Assembly (NCBI GenBank): GCA_025352785.1
Contig: JANXSD010000125.1
Span: 1-47,158 of the forward strand
Length of the DNA: 47,158 bases
Origin: Bacteroidota bacterium
Lineage (GTDB): Bacteria > Bacteroidota > Bacteroidia > AKYH767-A > OLB10
Reading direction: 5' to 3'
Of this stretch, positions 35,963-47,158 are shown piece by piece. The position numbers and the translations under genes are program-made. The notes under the pieces were generated by a model. It searched no databases and had not been told where the DNA came from. It saw only the letters and a program-made list of their open reading frames with translations. Position 1 is the stretch's first letter, and each line of letters begins with the position of its first letter.

Positions 35963-36295
35963 AATGCTTATTAAGAGAACAAATATTACGGAAAAATTAG
36001 ATTTATGTTCCTAAAGTCCAATCTTTCTCCAATTATTTTTATTGTCACTTCAAGATAGAGCCTTTTTAATCAAAACTATTTAAACAGGAAATAATACTTT
36101 ACTCTTTAAAGTACATAAACACTAACCATTTCAGGTCATTTACGTATGAAATCCCCTCTTAGGATTTTGGTTTATAAACAAATAAATGGGCTAAAGTTCT
36201 GATTCTAATTATCTTAGTATTAATATGCTAGGAATTTAAAATTTGTCCTCTTTGTTCAAAACAACTACCTTCGCAGCCCTAAAAATTTGAGTTTT
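35963..36295. other. Divergent intergenic region thrA / pyrophosphatase
   Basis: About 333 bases lie between the two divergent starts. It contains the near-canonical pyrophosphatase promoter and a weak -7-like AATATTTG for thrA. No attenuator, riboswitch-like fold, small ORF with a promoter or repeat was found in the middle. Confidence 0.45.
36242..36273 (+). promoter_or_regulatory. Promoter of the pyrophosphatase gene
   Basis: TTTG (36242-36245), a 20-base spacer and TACCTTCG (36266-36273) form a near-consensus promoter, with 22 bases to the ATG at 36296. Confidence 0.6.
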
Positions 36296-38821
36296 ATGCA
36301 AAATTTAATTTATCTAATTCCCCTACTTGGTATCATCGGTCTGATCGTAATGGCCATTAAATCAGCATGGGTAAGTAAGCAAGATGCTGGCGATGCAAAG
36401 ATGCAAGAGTTGGCAGGCTATATTGCCGATGGAGCAATGGCATTTCTAAAAGCAGAATGGAAAGTACTTGGTATTTTCGTAACATTCGCAGCTATTTTAT
36501 TAGCTTATTCAGGCACTATTCACGAGGTGAATGGTAAAGAAATCCACTCAAGTTGGATTATAGCGATCGCCTTTATTATTGGGGCAGTATTTTCGGCTAC
36601 CGCTGGTTATATTGGGATGAAAGTCGCTACGAAAGCAAATGTACGTACTACACAAGCTGCTCGAACAAGTTTAAAACAAGCTTTAAAAGTATCTTTCACG
36701 GGTGGAACCGTAATGGGATTAGGTGTTGCTGGTTTAGCAATACTTGGTTTAGGAGGATTATTTATTGCATTCCTAAACATTTTTGCAGGCTTAGGTGCCG
36801 ATACTGTTAGAACTTCCATCGAGGTACTTACGGGATTCTCCTTAGGTGCTGAGTCGATTGCATTATTTGCACGAGTTGGTGGTGGTATCTATACGAAAGC
36901 AGCCGATGTAGGTGCTGACCTTGTTGGTAAAGTAGAAGCAGGAATTCCTGAAGATGATGTTCGTAATCCAGCAACAATTGCGGATAATGTAGGTGATAAT
37001 GTTGGTGACGTTGCGGGTATGGGAGCCGATTTATTTGGTTCGTATGTAGCAACGATTTTAGCTACCATGGTATTAGGACAAGAGATTACGGTAACAGATA
37101 ATTTTGGTGGAATGTCGCCAATTTTATTACCAATGGTAATATGTGGTTTAGGAATTCTTTTCTCGATTGTTGGGACTTGGTTCGTTTCTATTAAGGATGA
37201 TAAATCAAATGTTCAAAGTGCTTTAAACCTCGGTAATTGGGCTTCGATGCTCATTACTGTTGTAGCATCTTACTTTGTTGTGATGTGGATGTTGCCCGAT
37301 GGCGATATCACTTTACGTACAGTAACTTTTACGAAGATGGGCGTGTTTATGGCAATTATTGTAGGTACTATCGTTGGTGCAATTATGAGCATTGTTACCG
37401 AGTATTATACTGCCATGGGCAAAGGCCCAGTAAATTCTATTATTCAACAAAGTTCAACCGGACATGCTACTAATATCATTGGTGGTTTATCGGTAGGGAT
37501 GAAATCAACTGTTGTCCCAATTTTAACTTTAGCAGCTGGTATTATGGCATCATTTCATTTTGCCGGATTATATGGAGTAGCAATTGCTGCTGCTGGTATG
37601 ATGGCTACTACTGCGATGCAATTAGCCATTGATGCTTTTGGACCTATTGCTGATAACGCAGGTGGTATTGCTGAAATGAGTCAACTACCTCCAGAGGTTC
37701 GTGAGCGTACCGATAATTTAGATGCTGTTGGAAACACAACTGCTGCAACAGGAAAAGGATTTGCGATAGCTTCTGCTGCATTAACATCATTAGCATTATT
37801 TGCGGCTTTTGTTGGAATAGCTGGTATTCATGCAATCGATATTTACAAGGCGAATGTACTTGCCGGATTATTTGTTGGTGCAATGATTCCATTTATTTTC
37901 TCAGCATTATGTATCCAAGCTGTTGGTAAAGCAGCTATGGACATGGTTCAAGAAGTTCGTCGTCAATTTCGCGAGATTCCAGGAATTATGGAATACAAAG
38001 CAAAACCTGAATATGAAAAATGTGTTGCCATATCTACTAAAGCATCACTTCGAGAAATGTTAATGCCTGGTGCAATTGCTTTGATTACTCCTTTAATAGT
38101 TGGATTCACTTTTGGCCCTGAGGTTTTAGGTGGTTTATTAGCCGGAGTGACTGTAAGTGGAGTCTTGATGGGGATTTTTCAATCGAATGCTGGTGGTGCT
38201 TGGGATAATGCAAAGAAATCATTCGAAAAAGGAGTGATGATTAATGGAGAAATGTTTTACAAAAAATCGGAGCCACATAAAGCTTCTGTAACGGGTGATA
38301 CTGTTGGTGATCCATTTAAAGATACCTCTGGTCCGTCAATGAATATTCTAATTAAATTAATGTCGATTGTTTCATTGGTTATCGCTCCTTATATTGCGGT
38401 AACTGGTGGGGATGAAGGGAATATGATGGGTTCTGATTGCTGTAAGGATAAAGCCAATACAGAATGTATGATGGGTCATGATATGCAGATGGGAATGAGC
38501 TGTGAGATGGACTCAGCAGGCAACTGTGTGATCGATACAGCAACGTGCAACAAATGGATTGCTGAAGGCAAATGCGATAGTACTGATTGTTTAAAGATGG
38601 AGAACGGCAAATGCACCATGAAACATGATGCTTGCTCAAAAGCCGCGATGGGCGATTGTTGTTCAAAAGAAAAAATGAAAGAATGCAAAGAACACGGAAT
38701 GCAGTGCAAAGGTGATATGAAAAATCATGATTGCTCTAAAGGTTGTTCCAAAGAATGCATGGAACAATGCAAAGCACATGGAATGCAATGCAAAGGCGAA
38801 ATGAAAGACTGCTGTAAATAA
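36296..38821 (+). CDS. hppA: Membrane-bound ion-pumping pyrophosphatase with Cys/Met-rich tail
   Basis: I use the ATG at 36296; a TTG at 36287 would add three residues. About 700 residues form the 16-helix pump that couples PPi hydrolysis to Na+ and/or H+ export. The catalytic motif [18 protein letters not shown] and the Asp-rich [21 protein letters not shown] are intact. [12 protein letters not shown] carries Ala rather than Lys, which marks the K+-dependent class. After the last helix ([12 protein letters not shown]) comes an unusual tail of about 130 residues with 21 Cys, 17 Met and 5 His, including two copies of an HGMQCKG(D/E)MK unit. The known topology puts the C-terminus on the periplasmic side. 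Metal binding is inferred. A terminator follows. Confidence 0.93.
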
Positions 38822-41569: not shown

Positions 41570-42721
41570 ATGGTAAATTCACTACAACTTTTATTTGGAA
41601 TCTGGTTAGGGATGTTATCATTACCAGGTGAAAAGCTGCCATTTAATTTTGATTTACAAAAAGTGAATGGTAAAATTGTGATGATCATTCATAATGCAGA
41701 AGAAAGAATTAAATGTGATGAAGTTACAGCGAGTGGAGATTCTTTATTCATTCGCATTCCTGTTTTTGACTCCGAATTTAGAGTAAAAATTTCGGACAAA
41801 ACGATGAATGGTATTTGGATAAACTATGGAAGAAAAGGAAATCCTTCGATTCCTTTTGAAGCGGAATATAATAATGCGAATCGATTTCCTATTACAAAAA
41901 AACCTGCTGTTGATGTGAGTGGAAGATGGGAGGTTTGGTTTGATGAAGGCACTCCCGATTCATCACTTGCGATTGGCGTGTTCAAACAAATTGACGAAAA
42001 AGTTAGTGGAACATTTTTAACAGAAACAGGTGATCATCGATTTTTAGAAGGCATTGTAAATGGCGATTCATTAATGCTAAGTGTATTTGATGGATCACAT
42101 TGTTGGTTATATAAATCGCATGTTACCAATGATCATATCCATGGAGTGCAATGGTCGGGATTAACTTACAAGGGTTCATGGAAAGCAAAGCGGAATGATA
42201 CTATTCAATTGCGAAATCCTGAAACTATTTCTCATGTTGAAGGTACATTAGCCTTTACATTTCCTGATGTTGATAGCAATCTAGTTTCATTAAGTGATTC
42301 GCGTTTTAAAAATAAAGTGGTAATCATTCAGATCATGGGATCATGGTGTCCAAACTGTATGGATGAAACTGCATTCTTATCTGAATATTACAAAAAACAT
42401 CATGAGGAAGGATTAGAAATAATTGGATTGGCATTCGAACGATTCCCTGAGTTTGCAAAAGCAAGTTTGAATGTCAAGCGTATAGCGAAACGTTATGATG
42501 TAAACTATCCATTATTAATAGCTGGCGTTTCAGGAAAAGAAAATGTGGGAAAAACAATCCCGCAATTGAAGGATTTCATAAGCTTTCCTACGTGTATTTT
42601 TATTGATCGAAATGGCAAAGTTCAAGAAGTGCATGCTGGATTTTCAGGACCTGCTACAGGAACTGATTACCAGCAGTATATTAGAAAATTCACACTCAAA
42701 GTGACGCAAATGTTACGGTAG
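41570..42721 (+). CDS. TlpA-like thioredoxin-domain protein
   Basis: This 383-residue protein has a hydrophobic N-terminus (about 4-18) that may be an export signal, an N-terminal beta-rich region of unknown kind (about 25-215), and a C-terminal thioredoxin-fold domain (about 225-380). The redox motif is WCPNC (Cys260 and Cys263), with FPTCIFIDRNGKV as the cis-Pro side. TlpA/ResA-type proteins reduce disulfides in exported proteins. It closes the operon of the TMTC-like protein and lipoprotein. The extra N-terminal region is common in Bacteroidota homologues. Confidence 0.8.
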   Translation: MVNSLQLLFGIWLGMLSLPGEKLPFNFDLQKVNGKIVMIIHNAEERIKCDEVTASGDSLFIRIPVFDSEFRVKISDKTMNGIWINYGRKGNPSIPFEAEYNNANRFPITKKPAVDVSGRWEVWFDEGTPDSSLAIGVFKQIDEKVSGTFLTETGDHRFLEGIVNGDSLMLSVFDGSHCWLYKSHVTNDHIHGVQWSGLTYKGSWKAKRNDTIQLRNPETISHVEGTLAFTFPDVDSNLVSLSDSRFKNKVVIIQIMGSWCPNCMDETAFLSEYYKKHHEEGLEIIGLAFERFPEFAKASLNVKRIAKRYDVNYPLLIAGVSGKENVGKTIPQLKDFISFPTCIFIDRNGKVQEVHAGFSGPATGTDYQQYIRKFTLKVTQMLR

Positions 42722-43017: not shown

Positions 43018-46000
43018 ATGAAAAAACTATTACTCGCATTCATTTCAATGTTAATGCCCTTTCTGATGGCAGCGCAGTGCACTACAAACAATTCAACATC
43101 TTGTAATTGCAAGGACGGTACTACAAATTGTGATTTATTACCTGATATTATTGTTGGTCGTCCAACATTATTGGTGAATGGAACAAGTGGTTATATCGAA
43201 TACCCACAAGTTTGTCCTGGTGGATGTAGTGGAAATGATGGTCGTTTACGTATTTCAGTGTCGAGTCCAAATATTGGTTTTGGCCCATTAGAAGTGCGCG
43301 CTATAAATACAATTATTTGTGGTACAGATACTTTTGTTAACCCAGCTTCTGGTTTTGTTTGTCCGAATGGAGATCCTCTTAAACAATTAGTAAATCAACG
43401 TATCTATCATAAGAATGGTAATACGATGACGTATTATGATCGTCCCGCAGGTAGTATGACTTATCATCCTTCACATGGTCACATGCACGTTGACGATTGG
43501 GGTATCTATACTTTACGCACAGCAACAACTAATCCCGATCCGTTGACGTGGCCAATTGTTGGAACAGGTTCGAAGCTTGCTTTTTGTTTAATGGATTATG
43601 GTAGTTGCTCAACCTATAATGGTCATTGTGTAGATTCAGTAAATAATATTTTAACGAATAGCAATTTTCCGAATTTCGGATTAGGTGGTGGCGCTTATGG
43701 ATGCTCCCCTACAATACAAGGAATTTCTTCTGGATATACCGATATATATTATCAATCATTAGATGGAATGTGGATTAATCTTCCTCCAGGATTATGTAAT
43801 GGACAATATTGGGTTGTTGTTCAGTTAGATCCTAAAGGATACTTTTTAGAGAGTAATGAAAATAATAATGTGATAGCGGTTCCGATTACTTTAACGCAAC
43901 AAAATGGTGTTGTTCCTACTGTTACTGCATCAGGTGCTACCACATTTTGTCAAGGTGGAAGTGTAATACTTACATCATCTGCAAGTGCAAATTATTTATG
44001 GTCGAATGGTGCAACAACACAGGCCATAACAGTTTCGCAAAGTGGTTCGTATTCCGTTACAGTAAATTCTACTTCTAGTTGCCCTACAACATCTTCTCCA
44101 AAAGTTGTTACAGTAAATCCATTAACGGTTTCAGCTACTGCAACACCAGCAGGAATTTGTCCAGGTGAAACAGTTCAATTAAATGCAGTTGCTACATCCA
44201 ATGGAACAGTAACCCAAACAGCAAGTTTTTCGAACAATACAATTTATGCTATACCCGATAACAATCCAACAGGAGTTACTTCAGCAGTAACAGTAAGTGG
44301 ATTAAATCCAACAACACTACTTTCGAATTCAGTAGTTTCTGTTACTATAAACATAACACATACTTACGATGCAGATTTAATTATTTCATTAATATCTCCA
44401 TCAGGAAATACGATTAACTTATCAAATAGTCGTGGTGGCAATGCTGATAATTTTGTGAATACCGTTTTCAGTGCCAGTGCAACAACATCTATCTCTGCTG
44501 GTACGGCACCTTTCACAGGATCTTATTTACCCGAAGCAGCCTTCAGTTCTTTAACAGGAAATCTAAATGGTACGTGGTCTTTAAAAGTTGTTGATCATGC
44601 AGGAACTGATCAAGGAACAATTAATAATTGGACATTACAACTTAATCAATCTTTACCAACGACCTTATCGTATGCCTGGACATCTAATCCCGTTGGTTAT
44701 ACTTCTTCATTAGCAAGTGGAACAGTGAATCCACTTACGACAACGAATTACATTGTAACAGTTACCGAAAGTTCGACAGGATGTACTGGAACACAAACAA
44801 TTCCTGTTACAGTTGGTAATTCATTGCACGTTACAACAAATTCTCCTAATGCAATTTGTGCAGGAGGAAGTACAACATTAACTGCAAGTGGTGCACCTTC
44901 TTACACATGGAGTCCAGCTATAGGATTAAGTGCTACAAGTAGTTCAACTGTTACTGCAAATCCAAGTCAAACTACTACTTATAAAGTTGTTGGAACAAAT
45001 GGTGGATGTAAAGATTCAGCAACTGTAACAGTTGTAGTTAATCCATTACCACCTGTTGCTGTAAATACTCCTGCGGCAATTTGTGCGGGGTCATCAACAA
45101 CGTTAAATGCAACTGGTGCATCAACCTATAATTGGGCTCCTTCTTTTGGTTTAAATATTTATACTGGTCCTACAGTTGTAGCAACAGCGAATCAAACTAC
45201 TACATACATTGTTACTGGAACTGATGCAAATGGATGTACTGCTTCTGCATTAACTGTAGTTGGCGTAAATCAAATTCCAGTTGTAAATTTAAACAGCAAC
45301 GCATTAATAGTTTGTAGTGGACAACCTACAACATTAACGGCAAGTGGTGCAAGTAGTTATTCATGGAGTCCATCATTAGGATTAGATGTATCAACAGGTT
45401 CAACAGTAATTTCTACTGTTACATCACCAATTACTTATACAGTTACTGGAACAAGTAATAATTGTTCATCTACTGCTTCTGTAACAATATCAATAAATAA
45501 TATTCCTGCAACACCCTCTGCAATTAATACTACTGCAACAACTTTTTGTGCTCCATTTAATGCAAGTTACAATATCACCTCAGTAACAAATACAAATGGA
45601 TATACCTGGACCGTTCCTGCAGGATTAACAATTGTTTCAGGACAAGGAACAGAATCTATAACTGTAAGTGGAACAGTTGCTGTATCAGGAAATATTTGTG
45701 TTACTGCTGATAATGTTTGCGGAAGTAGTTTACCATCATGCATTGCAATTAATATTACATCAGGAGTTCCTGGAGCCATAGGCACCATACTTCCAACAAC
45801 TGGTAAAGCTTGTCCAAATGATATAGTTACTTATAGTATTTCTCCAATAGCAAATACTACATCTTATAAATGGATAGGTCCAATTGGTTCAACAATTCTA
45901 TCTGGACAAGGTTCAACATCTGTTGTTGTACAATATAATCCTTCCTTTACTGGTGGTACTTATTTACAAGTTCGAGGTTCGAATGCATGTGGATTAGGTC

Positions 46001-46824
46001 CTAATAAATCAAAATTAATTTCATTAAATATACCAAGTACTCCAGGAGCAATTACAGGTTCTAATTCAGGAGTTTGTTTAAGCACCTTAAATTATTCTGT
46101 TACTTTGGTAAATGGGATGACTTATGTTTGGAAAGTACCCGCAAATGCGTCCATACTTTCTGGACAAGGAACAAATGCAATTTCAGTTCAATATGCAGCA
46201 GGATTTGTTTCCGGTAACATAACAGTATTTGCACAAAACGGTTGTGGAAATAGTGGTGTCCGAACAAAATCCATTAGCGCCGCACCAGTAAAAGTTACTT
46301 CAATAACTGGCCCTTTAAGTGTATGTACTGCACAAAGTGGTGTTACCTATTCTATAGCAGCTGTACCTAGTGCAATATCTTATGTATGGGCAGTGCCAGG
46401 AGGAACTATCACAAGTGGACAAGGATCAACAAGCATACAAGTAACATTCGCTGCAAACCCTCGAAATGCGTATGTACAAGTAACTCCAATAAATAGTTGT
46501 GCTGCTGCTCCTATTAAAACAATTACAGTTGTAGTGAATGCATGTGCTAAGGTTTATGATTTCAATTCAAATGGTGCAGCATTAAATCTTCAACCAAATC
46601 CTGCAAATAATTATGTAGAAGTACTCTATAATACCGACCTAACTACTCCAGGAAAAATTACTTTAAATAATATTCTTGGTCAAGTACAATATAGTCAAAT
46701 AATAAATCCTGAAGAAGGTAAAAATTCATACATGATTGATCTTCGTAAATTTCCTTCAGGGATTTACATGTTGAATGTACATCAAGGTGATAGAAATTAT
46801 ACCCAACGATTAGTTATAGAATAA
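43018..46824 (+). CDS. Secreted lysyl-oxidase-like protein with P-domain, Ig-like repeats and T9SS type A signal
   Basis: This 1268-residue protein has a signal peptide (cleavage about after AAQ at residue 20). Residues about 35-285 look like a lysyl oxidase domain: HGHMH at 153-157 matches the copper-binding HxHxH; GSKLAFCLMD keeps the Lys (Lys186) and SGYTDIYYQSLDGMW keeps the Tyr (Tyr244) that form the lysyl tyrosylquinone cofactor; ESNENNNV follows as in the animal enzymes. Then come an Ig-like module, a proprotein-convertase P-domain (about 400-545), several Cys-paired Ig-like repeats, and a T9SS type A sorting domain starting LNLQPNPANNYVEV. The enzyme class oxidises peptidyl lysine to aldehydes; activity here is inferred. 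Confidence 0.85.
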   Translation: MKKLLLAFISMLMPFLMAAQCTTNNSTSCNCKDGTTNCDLLPDIIVGRPTLLVNGTSGYIEYPQVCPGGCSGNDGRLRISVSSPNIGFGPLEVRAINTIICGTDTFVNPASGFVCPNGDPLKQLVNQRIYHKNGNTMTYYDRPAGSMTYHPSHGHMHVDDWGIYTLRTATTNPDPLTWPIVGTGSKLAFCLMDYGSCSTYNGHCVDSVNNILTNSNFPNFGLGGGAYGCSPTIQGISSGYTDIYYQSLDGMWINLPPGLCNGQYWVVVQLDPKGYFLESNENNNVIAVPITLTQQNGVVPTVTASGATTFCQGGSVILTSSASANYLWSNGATTQAITVSQSGSYSVTVNSTSSCPTTSSPKVVTVNPLTVSATATPAGICPGETVQLNAVATSNGTVTQTASFSNNTIYAIPDNNPTGVTSAVTVSGLNPTTLLSNSVVSVTINITHTYDADLIISLISPSGNTINLSNSRGGNADNFVNTVFSASATTSISAGTAPFTGSYLPEAAFSSLTGNLNGTWSLKVVDHAGTDQGTINNWTLQLNQSLPTTLSYAWTSNPVGYTSSLASGTVNPLTTTNYIVTVTESSTGCTGTQTIPVTVGNSLHVTTNSPNAICAGGSTTLTASGAPSYTWSPAIGLSATSSSTVTANPSQTTTYKVVGTNGGCKDSATVTVVVNPLPPVAVNTPAAICAGSSTTLNATGASTYNWAPSFGLNIYTGPTVVATANQTTTYIVTGTDANGCTASALTVVGVNQIPVVNLNSNALIVCSGQPTTLTASGASSYSWSPSLGLDVSTGSTVISTVTSPITYTVTGTSNNCSSTASVTISINNIPATPSAINTTATTFCAPFNASYNITSVTNTNGYTWTVPAGLTIVSGQGTESITVSGTVAVSGNICVTADNVCGSSLPSCIAINITSGVPGAIGTILPTTGKACPNDIVTYSISPIANTTSYKWIGPIGSTILSGQGSTSVVVQYNPSFTGGTYLQVRGSNACGLGPNKSKLISLNIPSTPGAITGSNSGVCLSTLNYSVTLVNGMTYVWKVPANASILSGQGTNAISVQYAAGFVSGNITVFAQNGCGNSGVRTKSISAAPVKVTSITGPLSVCTAQSGVTYSIAAVPSAISYVWAVPGGTITSGQGSTSIQVTFAANPRNAYVQVTPINSCAAAPIKTITVVVNACAKVYDFNSNGAALNLQPNPANNYVEVLYNTDLTTPGKITLNNILGQVQYSQIINPEEGKNSYMIDLRKFPSGIYMLNVHQGDRNYTQRLVIE

Positions 46825-46897: not shown

Positions 46898-47158
46898 ATG
46901 CATAAATTATTATCAGTTGTCTTTATCCTTATTGGATTCATAGCTAACTCACAAGTAATTCCATTAACAAATTACGACAGAATAAATTCTCAATTACCTG
47001 AGAACTCTGTTCGTTGTATCACCTTTGAAAATGATTCAACAGTTTGGATGGGTACAGATGCTGGTCTTGCTAAATTAGAAGGGACAACATGGACAATATA
47101 TCATCCAACTAATTCTGGATTACCTTGGGATGATGTTAGAGCAATAACGATTGATAAA
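46898..47158 (+). CDS. Start of a two-component-regulator-type beta-propeller protein (truncated by window)
   Basis: An ATG at 46898 opens a frame that runs off the window (87 codons visible). It has a signal peptide (MHKLLSVVFILIGFIANSQ). The mature part reads LPENSVRCITFENDSTVWMG, then TDAGLAKLEGTTW and SGLPWDDVRAITID. These are Reg_prop-type propeller repeats, as found in hybrid two-component sensors and in secreted T9SS proteins of Bacteroidota. Which type it is depends on the missing C-terminus. Confidence 0.8.
   Translation, partial: MHKLLSVVFILIGFIANSQVIPLTNYDRINSQLPENSVRCITFENDSTVWMGTDAGLAKLEGTTWTIYHPTNSGLPWDDVRAITIDK

Follow-up and report, generated by a model that had tools for sequence, protein, structure and literature searches.

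An intact open reading frame in the window, by which we mean the whole 47,158-nucleotide stretch of Bacteroidota DNA analysed here, probably encodes a copper- and LTQ-dependent amine oxidase of the lysyl oxidase (LOX) family that is exported by the type IX secretion system (T9SS) to the cell surface or beyond, a reading that draws on sequence comparison and a structural model. Prokaryotic LOX is itself already known; what appears to be new is its combination with T9SS export, and this combination is common within the class. The frame begins with ATG, has no internal stop codons and is laid out as follows:

43018–46824, + strand: open reading frame of 1268 residues, with LOX domain, P-domain, Ig_7 and PKD_6 repeats and T9SS tail
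43018–43077, + strand: putative Sec signal peptide (MKKLLLAFISMLMPFLMAAQ), judged by eye from the sequence
43078–43905, + strand: LOX catalytic domain, about residues 21–296
43465–43467, + strand: His150, aligned with LOXL2 His623 and LOX His289; present in 75 of 83 relatives
43474–43488, + strand: H153-G-H155-M-H157, putative copper-site motif, aligned with LOXL2 His626, His628 and His630
43573–43575, + strand: Lys186, aligned with LOXL2 Lys653 (the LTQ lysine); present in 83 of 83 relatives
43747–43749, + strand: Tyr244, aligned with LOXL2 Tyr689 (the LTQ tyrosine); present in 83 of 83 relatives
44332–44643, + strand: P_proprotein domain, residues 439–542 (Pfam, 59.2 bits)
45049–45279, + strand: Ig_7 domain, residues 678–754, the best among three stretches (Pfam)
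46285–46530, + strand: PKD_6 domain, residues 1090–1171, the best among five stretches (Pfam)
46594–46818, + strand: type A T9SS C-terminal sorting domain, residues 1193–1267 (Pfam Por_Secre_tail, NCBIfam TIGR04183)

Identification of the lysyl oxidase domain

The Pfam families that score above cut-off in the frame are Lysyl_oxidase, P_proprotein, PKD_6 (five times), Ig_7 (three times) and Por_Secre_tail, with CARDB as a weak extra match. Lysyl_oxidase (PF01186) reaches 31.1 bits against a cut-off of 20.4 with the whole protein, and 35.2 bits with the domain alone. Because this match is partial, covering only the tyrosine half of the domain (residues 226–296), we examined the copper and lysine half independently of Pfam, by comparing a profile with PDB sequences and by hhalign. 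Among PDB sequences, LOXL2 (5ze3) was the sole significant match of a profile of 23 relatives (E 2.2e-5). The alignment keeps the HxHxH, GxK..FCL and DxY segments in register; its opening stretch is weak when taken alone (3.7 bits). The profile was needed here, as phmmer with the single sequence against the PDB found nothing real. Alignment of the 83 relatives by hhalign to a classical LOX encoded elsewhere in the same genome gave a probability of 96 (E 3e-9) and placed HGHMH on HNHWH, lysine on lysine and tyrosine on tyrosine. PF01186 also matches the domains of 81 of the 83 relatives.

The structural comparison with LOXL2 that the first-pass annotation had proposed points the same way. An AlphaFold2 model of the domain (pLDDT 85.9, pTM 0.82) retrieved two LOXL2 chains as the only Foldseek matches below E 0.001 (best 4.6e-5), and VIA-align superposed it on 5ze3 with a Z score of 13.5 (175 residues aligned, rmsd 3.2 Å), the next entries, at Z 6.5, being a glycosidase and CARDB domains. 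The assignment to the LOX family made in that annotation is thus upheld by the Pfam score, the profile and hhalign registers and the model, and its placement of HGHMH at residue 153, Lys186 and Tyr244 is correct as to position and in register with both LOXL2 and the second LOX of the genome. We note that the distance of Lys186 and Tyr244 from the HxHxH motif in the model would not be decisive, because Lys653 and Tyr689 lie 16.6 Å apart in the LOXL2 precursor crystal (PMC9694262).

The domain shares with human LOXL2 and LOX (PF01186; 5ze3) the fold, the HxxHxHxH spacing, the LTQ lysine and tyrosine and the calcium-site glutamate (E278). Identity with LOXL2 is about 22% over the 175 structurally aligned residues, and LOXL2 His652 is replaced by Ser185. 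Two LOXL2 cysteines, which we take to be C657 and C673, align with C190 and C229, whereas the cysteines on either side of the LTQ tyrosine in animal LOX have no equivalents here; C197 and C204 are conserved inside the clade, and Tyr245, adjacent to Tyr244, varies among the 83 relatives. The protein also lacks the SRCR domains of LOXL2 and carries a T9SS tail instead.

Export

The sorting domain scores 36.5 bits with TIGR04183 against a cut-off of 23, and the N-terminus looks by eye like a typical Sec-type signal, so that the mature protein likely starts near C21. Since the genome also encodes the sortase PorU (1219.7 bits), SprA (2328 bits) and at least 150 T9SS-tailed proteins (150 being the number scored), export of the window LOX by the T9SS, as originally proposed, is likely and well supported.

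Distribution and relation to known prokaryotic lysyl oxidases

Homologues were collected from a GTDB scan (22 loci) and from 395 whole genomes of the same class. LOX homologues occur in 80 of these 395 genomes at E 1e-5, and in 66 the match is strong (better than 1e-30); a census with PF01186 across the phylum was positive in only 4 of 296 genomes, a different genome sample whose count is not comparable with 66 of 395. A T9SS tail is present in 65 of the 74 relatives with complete C-termini. The architecture had been described as unusual, which is only partly right, since LOX domains combined with Ig-type repeats and a T9SS tail occur commonly across the class. At two loci, L084 (G089:C344) and L069 (G111:C1), tandem LOX duplicates lie side by side, and at a third, L024 (4932–7228, in a complete MAG), the LOX frame is split between two frames of 278 and 501 residues, by a frameshift or a sequencing error.

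That LOX exists in some bacteria, as had also been stated, agrees with a report from 2015 that lists prokaryotic members, Bacteroidetes included, most of them bare LOX domains (Grau-Bove, PMC4448552); the window LOX domain, in contrast, sits on a multi-domain T9SS cargo. Known bacterial and archaeal proteins resemble it in keeping the copper and LTQ residues (PMC4448552, PMC6452851). The first histidine (LOX H289) is missing from bacterial LOX according to Grau-Bove et al. (PMC4448552), unlike in the window protein and in 75 of the 83 relatives. A literature search that covered part of the literature found no description of LOX as a T9SS cargo and turned up no measurements of activity for a Bacteroidota member.

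Apparent repeated loss of the copper site

Only 8 of 276 columns are invariant across the 83 aligned domains, and Lys186 and Tyr244 are two of these eight, which argues that the conservation of this pair goes beyond chance. The HxHxH motif is whole in 75 of the 83 relatives, and all of the other eight keep the lysine and the tyrosine. In the tree, these eight fall as L050, L051, L053 and L054; as L083 and both copies of L084; and as L052, so that copper-less groups adjoin copper-intact members in three separate places. The copper ligands therefore seem to have been lost in three separate lineages in which both cofactor residues were retained, a number read from the drawing of the tree without a formal test, with backbone support partly below 95 and L052 on an open fork; the single change counted on the tree itself considers labelled rows only and ignores the copper-intact rows in between. 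This apparent loss of the copper site with the lysine and tyrosine kept is the least expected of our results.

In LOXL2 the three histidines are required for LTQ formation (PMC9694262), so LTQ probably does not form in the copper-less relatives, which would have kept the Lys/Tyr pair for another reason; conservation of the pair may be partly structural. It follows that its invariance does not by itself prove that the window protein forms LTQ. The copper ligands mark LTQ more reliably, and the window protein has all of them, plus His150.

A second lysyl oxidase and the gene neighbourhood

The genome's second LOX (L001, at G000:C4, minus strand, 472–2898; 809 residues) resembles the window protein in having a LOX domain (98.6 bits), an HNHWH motif, the lysine, the tyrosine and a T9SS tail. 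It differs in being nearer to animal LOX, in keeping the cysteine pair around the tyrosine, in lacking the first histidine and in its N-terminal extension.

Two genes flank the LOX gene:

41570–42721, + strand: redoxin (TlpA/ResA-like, WCPNC), directly upstream of LOX
46898–47158, + strand: beginning of a Reg_prop protein, truncated where the contig stops

A TPR/TMTC-like membrane protein is also encoded upstream, and a similar Reg_prop gene lies downstream of LOX in several relatives. In about ten loci from several families the redoxin gene immediately precedes LOX, an adjacency that is not obligatory. The redoxin family is present in 46 of the 66 LOX genomes and co-occurs modestly with LOX (Fisher p 7e-4, kinship ignored). 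That the redoxin is a partner specific to LOX, for copper or thiols, was considered and rejected, as its family occurs in 198 of 395 genomes and the majority of these have no LOX; the adjacency is read as retained synteny. Elsewhere in the window, the product of 36287–38821 (+ strand) looks by inspection like a membrane H+-pyrophosphatase and ends in a long C-terminal tail, rich in Cys, Met and His and apparently metal-binding; a similar tail is found in the relative L003.

Possible function

We envisage that the protein would be exported by Sec and then fold in the periplasm, where copper would be bound through H153, H155 and H157 and Tyr244 would be oxidised with O2 and joined to Lys186 to give LTQ. 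It would then pass through the T9SS and be attached or released, held by its stalk of Ig, PKD and P-domains, and outside the cell it would oxidise protein lysines or primary amines, yielding aldehydes, H2O2 and NH3. The genome encodes a cytochrome oxidase, consistent with use of O2; across the class, the comparison of cytochrome oxidase with LOX had no power, 375 of 395 genomes being positive (p 0.22).

The role that we tentatively prefer, and only weakly over the scavenging of amines, is to cross-link proteins of the cell's own surface or matrix. The first-pass annotation had also considered a host-like substrate; no finding of this analysis points to a host or host-like matrix. Scavenging, in which LOX chemistry would act on small amines in nutrition, detoxification or antagonism of neighbours and would yield H2O2, is a somewhat unlikely alternative that competes with cross-linking for the role and leaves the identity of the enzyme unchanged. 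HTU-LOX, a distant archaeal LOX that is active in vitro and sensitive to 3-aminopropionitrile, has a broad amine range that includes many primary amines, taurine, glycine and aminoglycosides (PMC6452851), and no candidate for a cross-linking substrate was found next to the window LOX gene; the long Ig/PKD stalk and surface sorting nevertheless fit a fixed position in a matrix, from which small amines could still be oxidised.

The identity of the protein as an oxidase faces two further challenges. The LOX fold might lack oxidase activity and give a surface protein a module for binding or scaffolding, in line with the three places in the tree where the copper ligands are lost while the fold signature and the Lys/Tyr pair persist, and with the likeness of the C-terminal half of the domain to the CARDB Ig-like fold. 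We regard this as unlikely for the window protein, which, like 74 others, keeps the three copper ligands, most of these proteins also having the fourth histidine, so that loss is the exception. That same likeness, together with the weak CARDB match and the confinement of the Pfam LOX match to the CARDB-like half, could even suggest a CARDB or Ig-like domain with an HxHxH motif arising by chance; this is very improbable, since LOXL2 stands far above CARDB in both Foldseek and VIA-align and the register of the motifs in the profile and hhalign comparisons spans both halves of the domain. A T9SS-exported copper/LTQ amine oxidase thus remains our preferred reading.

LOX cross-links the connective tissue of animals, and this activity on proteins is seen as a trait of the animal matrix, the prokaryotic relatives of the enzyme being enigmatic. 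It is conceivable, if quite a long shot, that LOX proteins exported to the surface form a widespread, as yet undescribed group in Bacteroidota, in which they covalently modify the matrix of the cell that makes them, and that some members are active and others copper-free. If this were so, retention of the lysine and tyrosine in the copper-free lineages would imply that a cofactor or a Lys-Tyr bond forms there with no need of copper, or that the pair has a second function. A large bacterial clade with surface-exported LOX would provide many test cases for the role of LOX outside animals, and the natural losses of the copper site in which the cofactor residues are kept would offer a direct handle on what the lysine and tyrosine are needed for.
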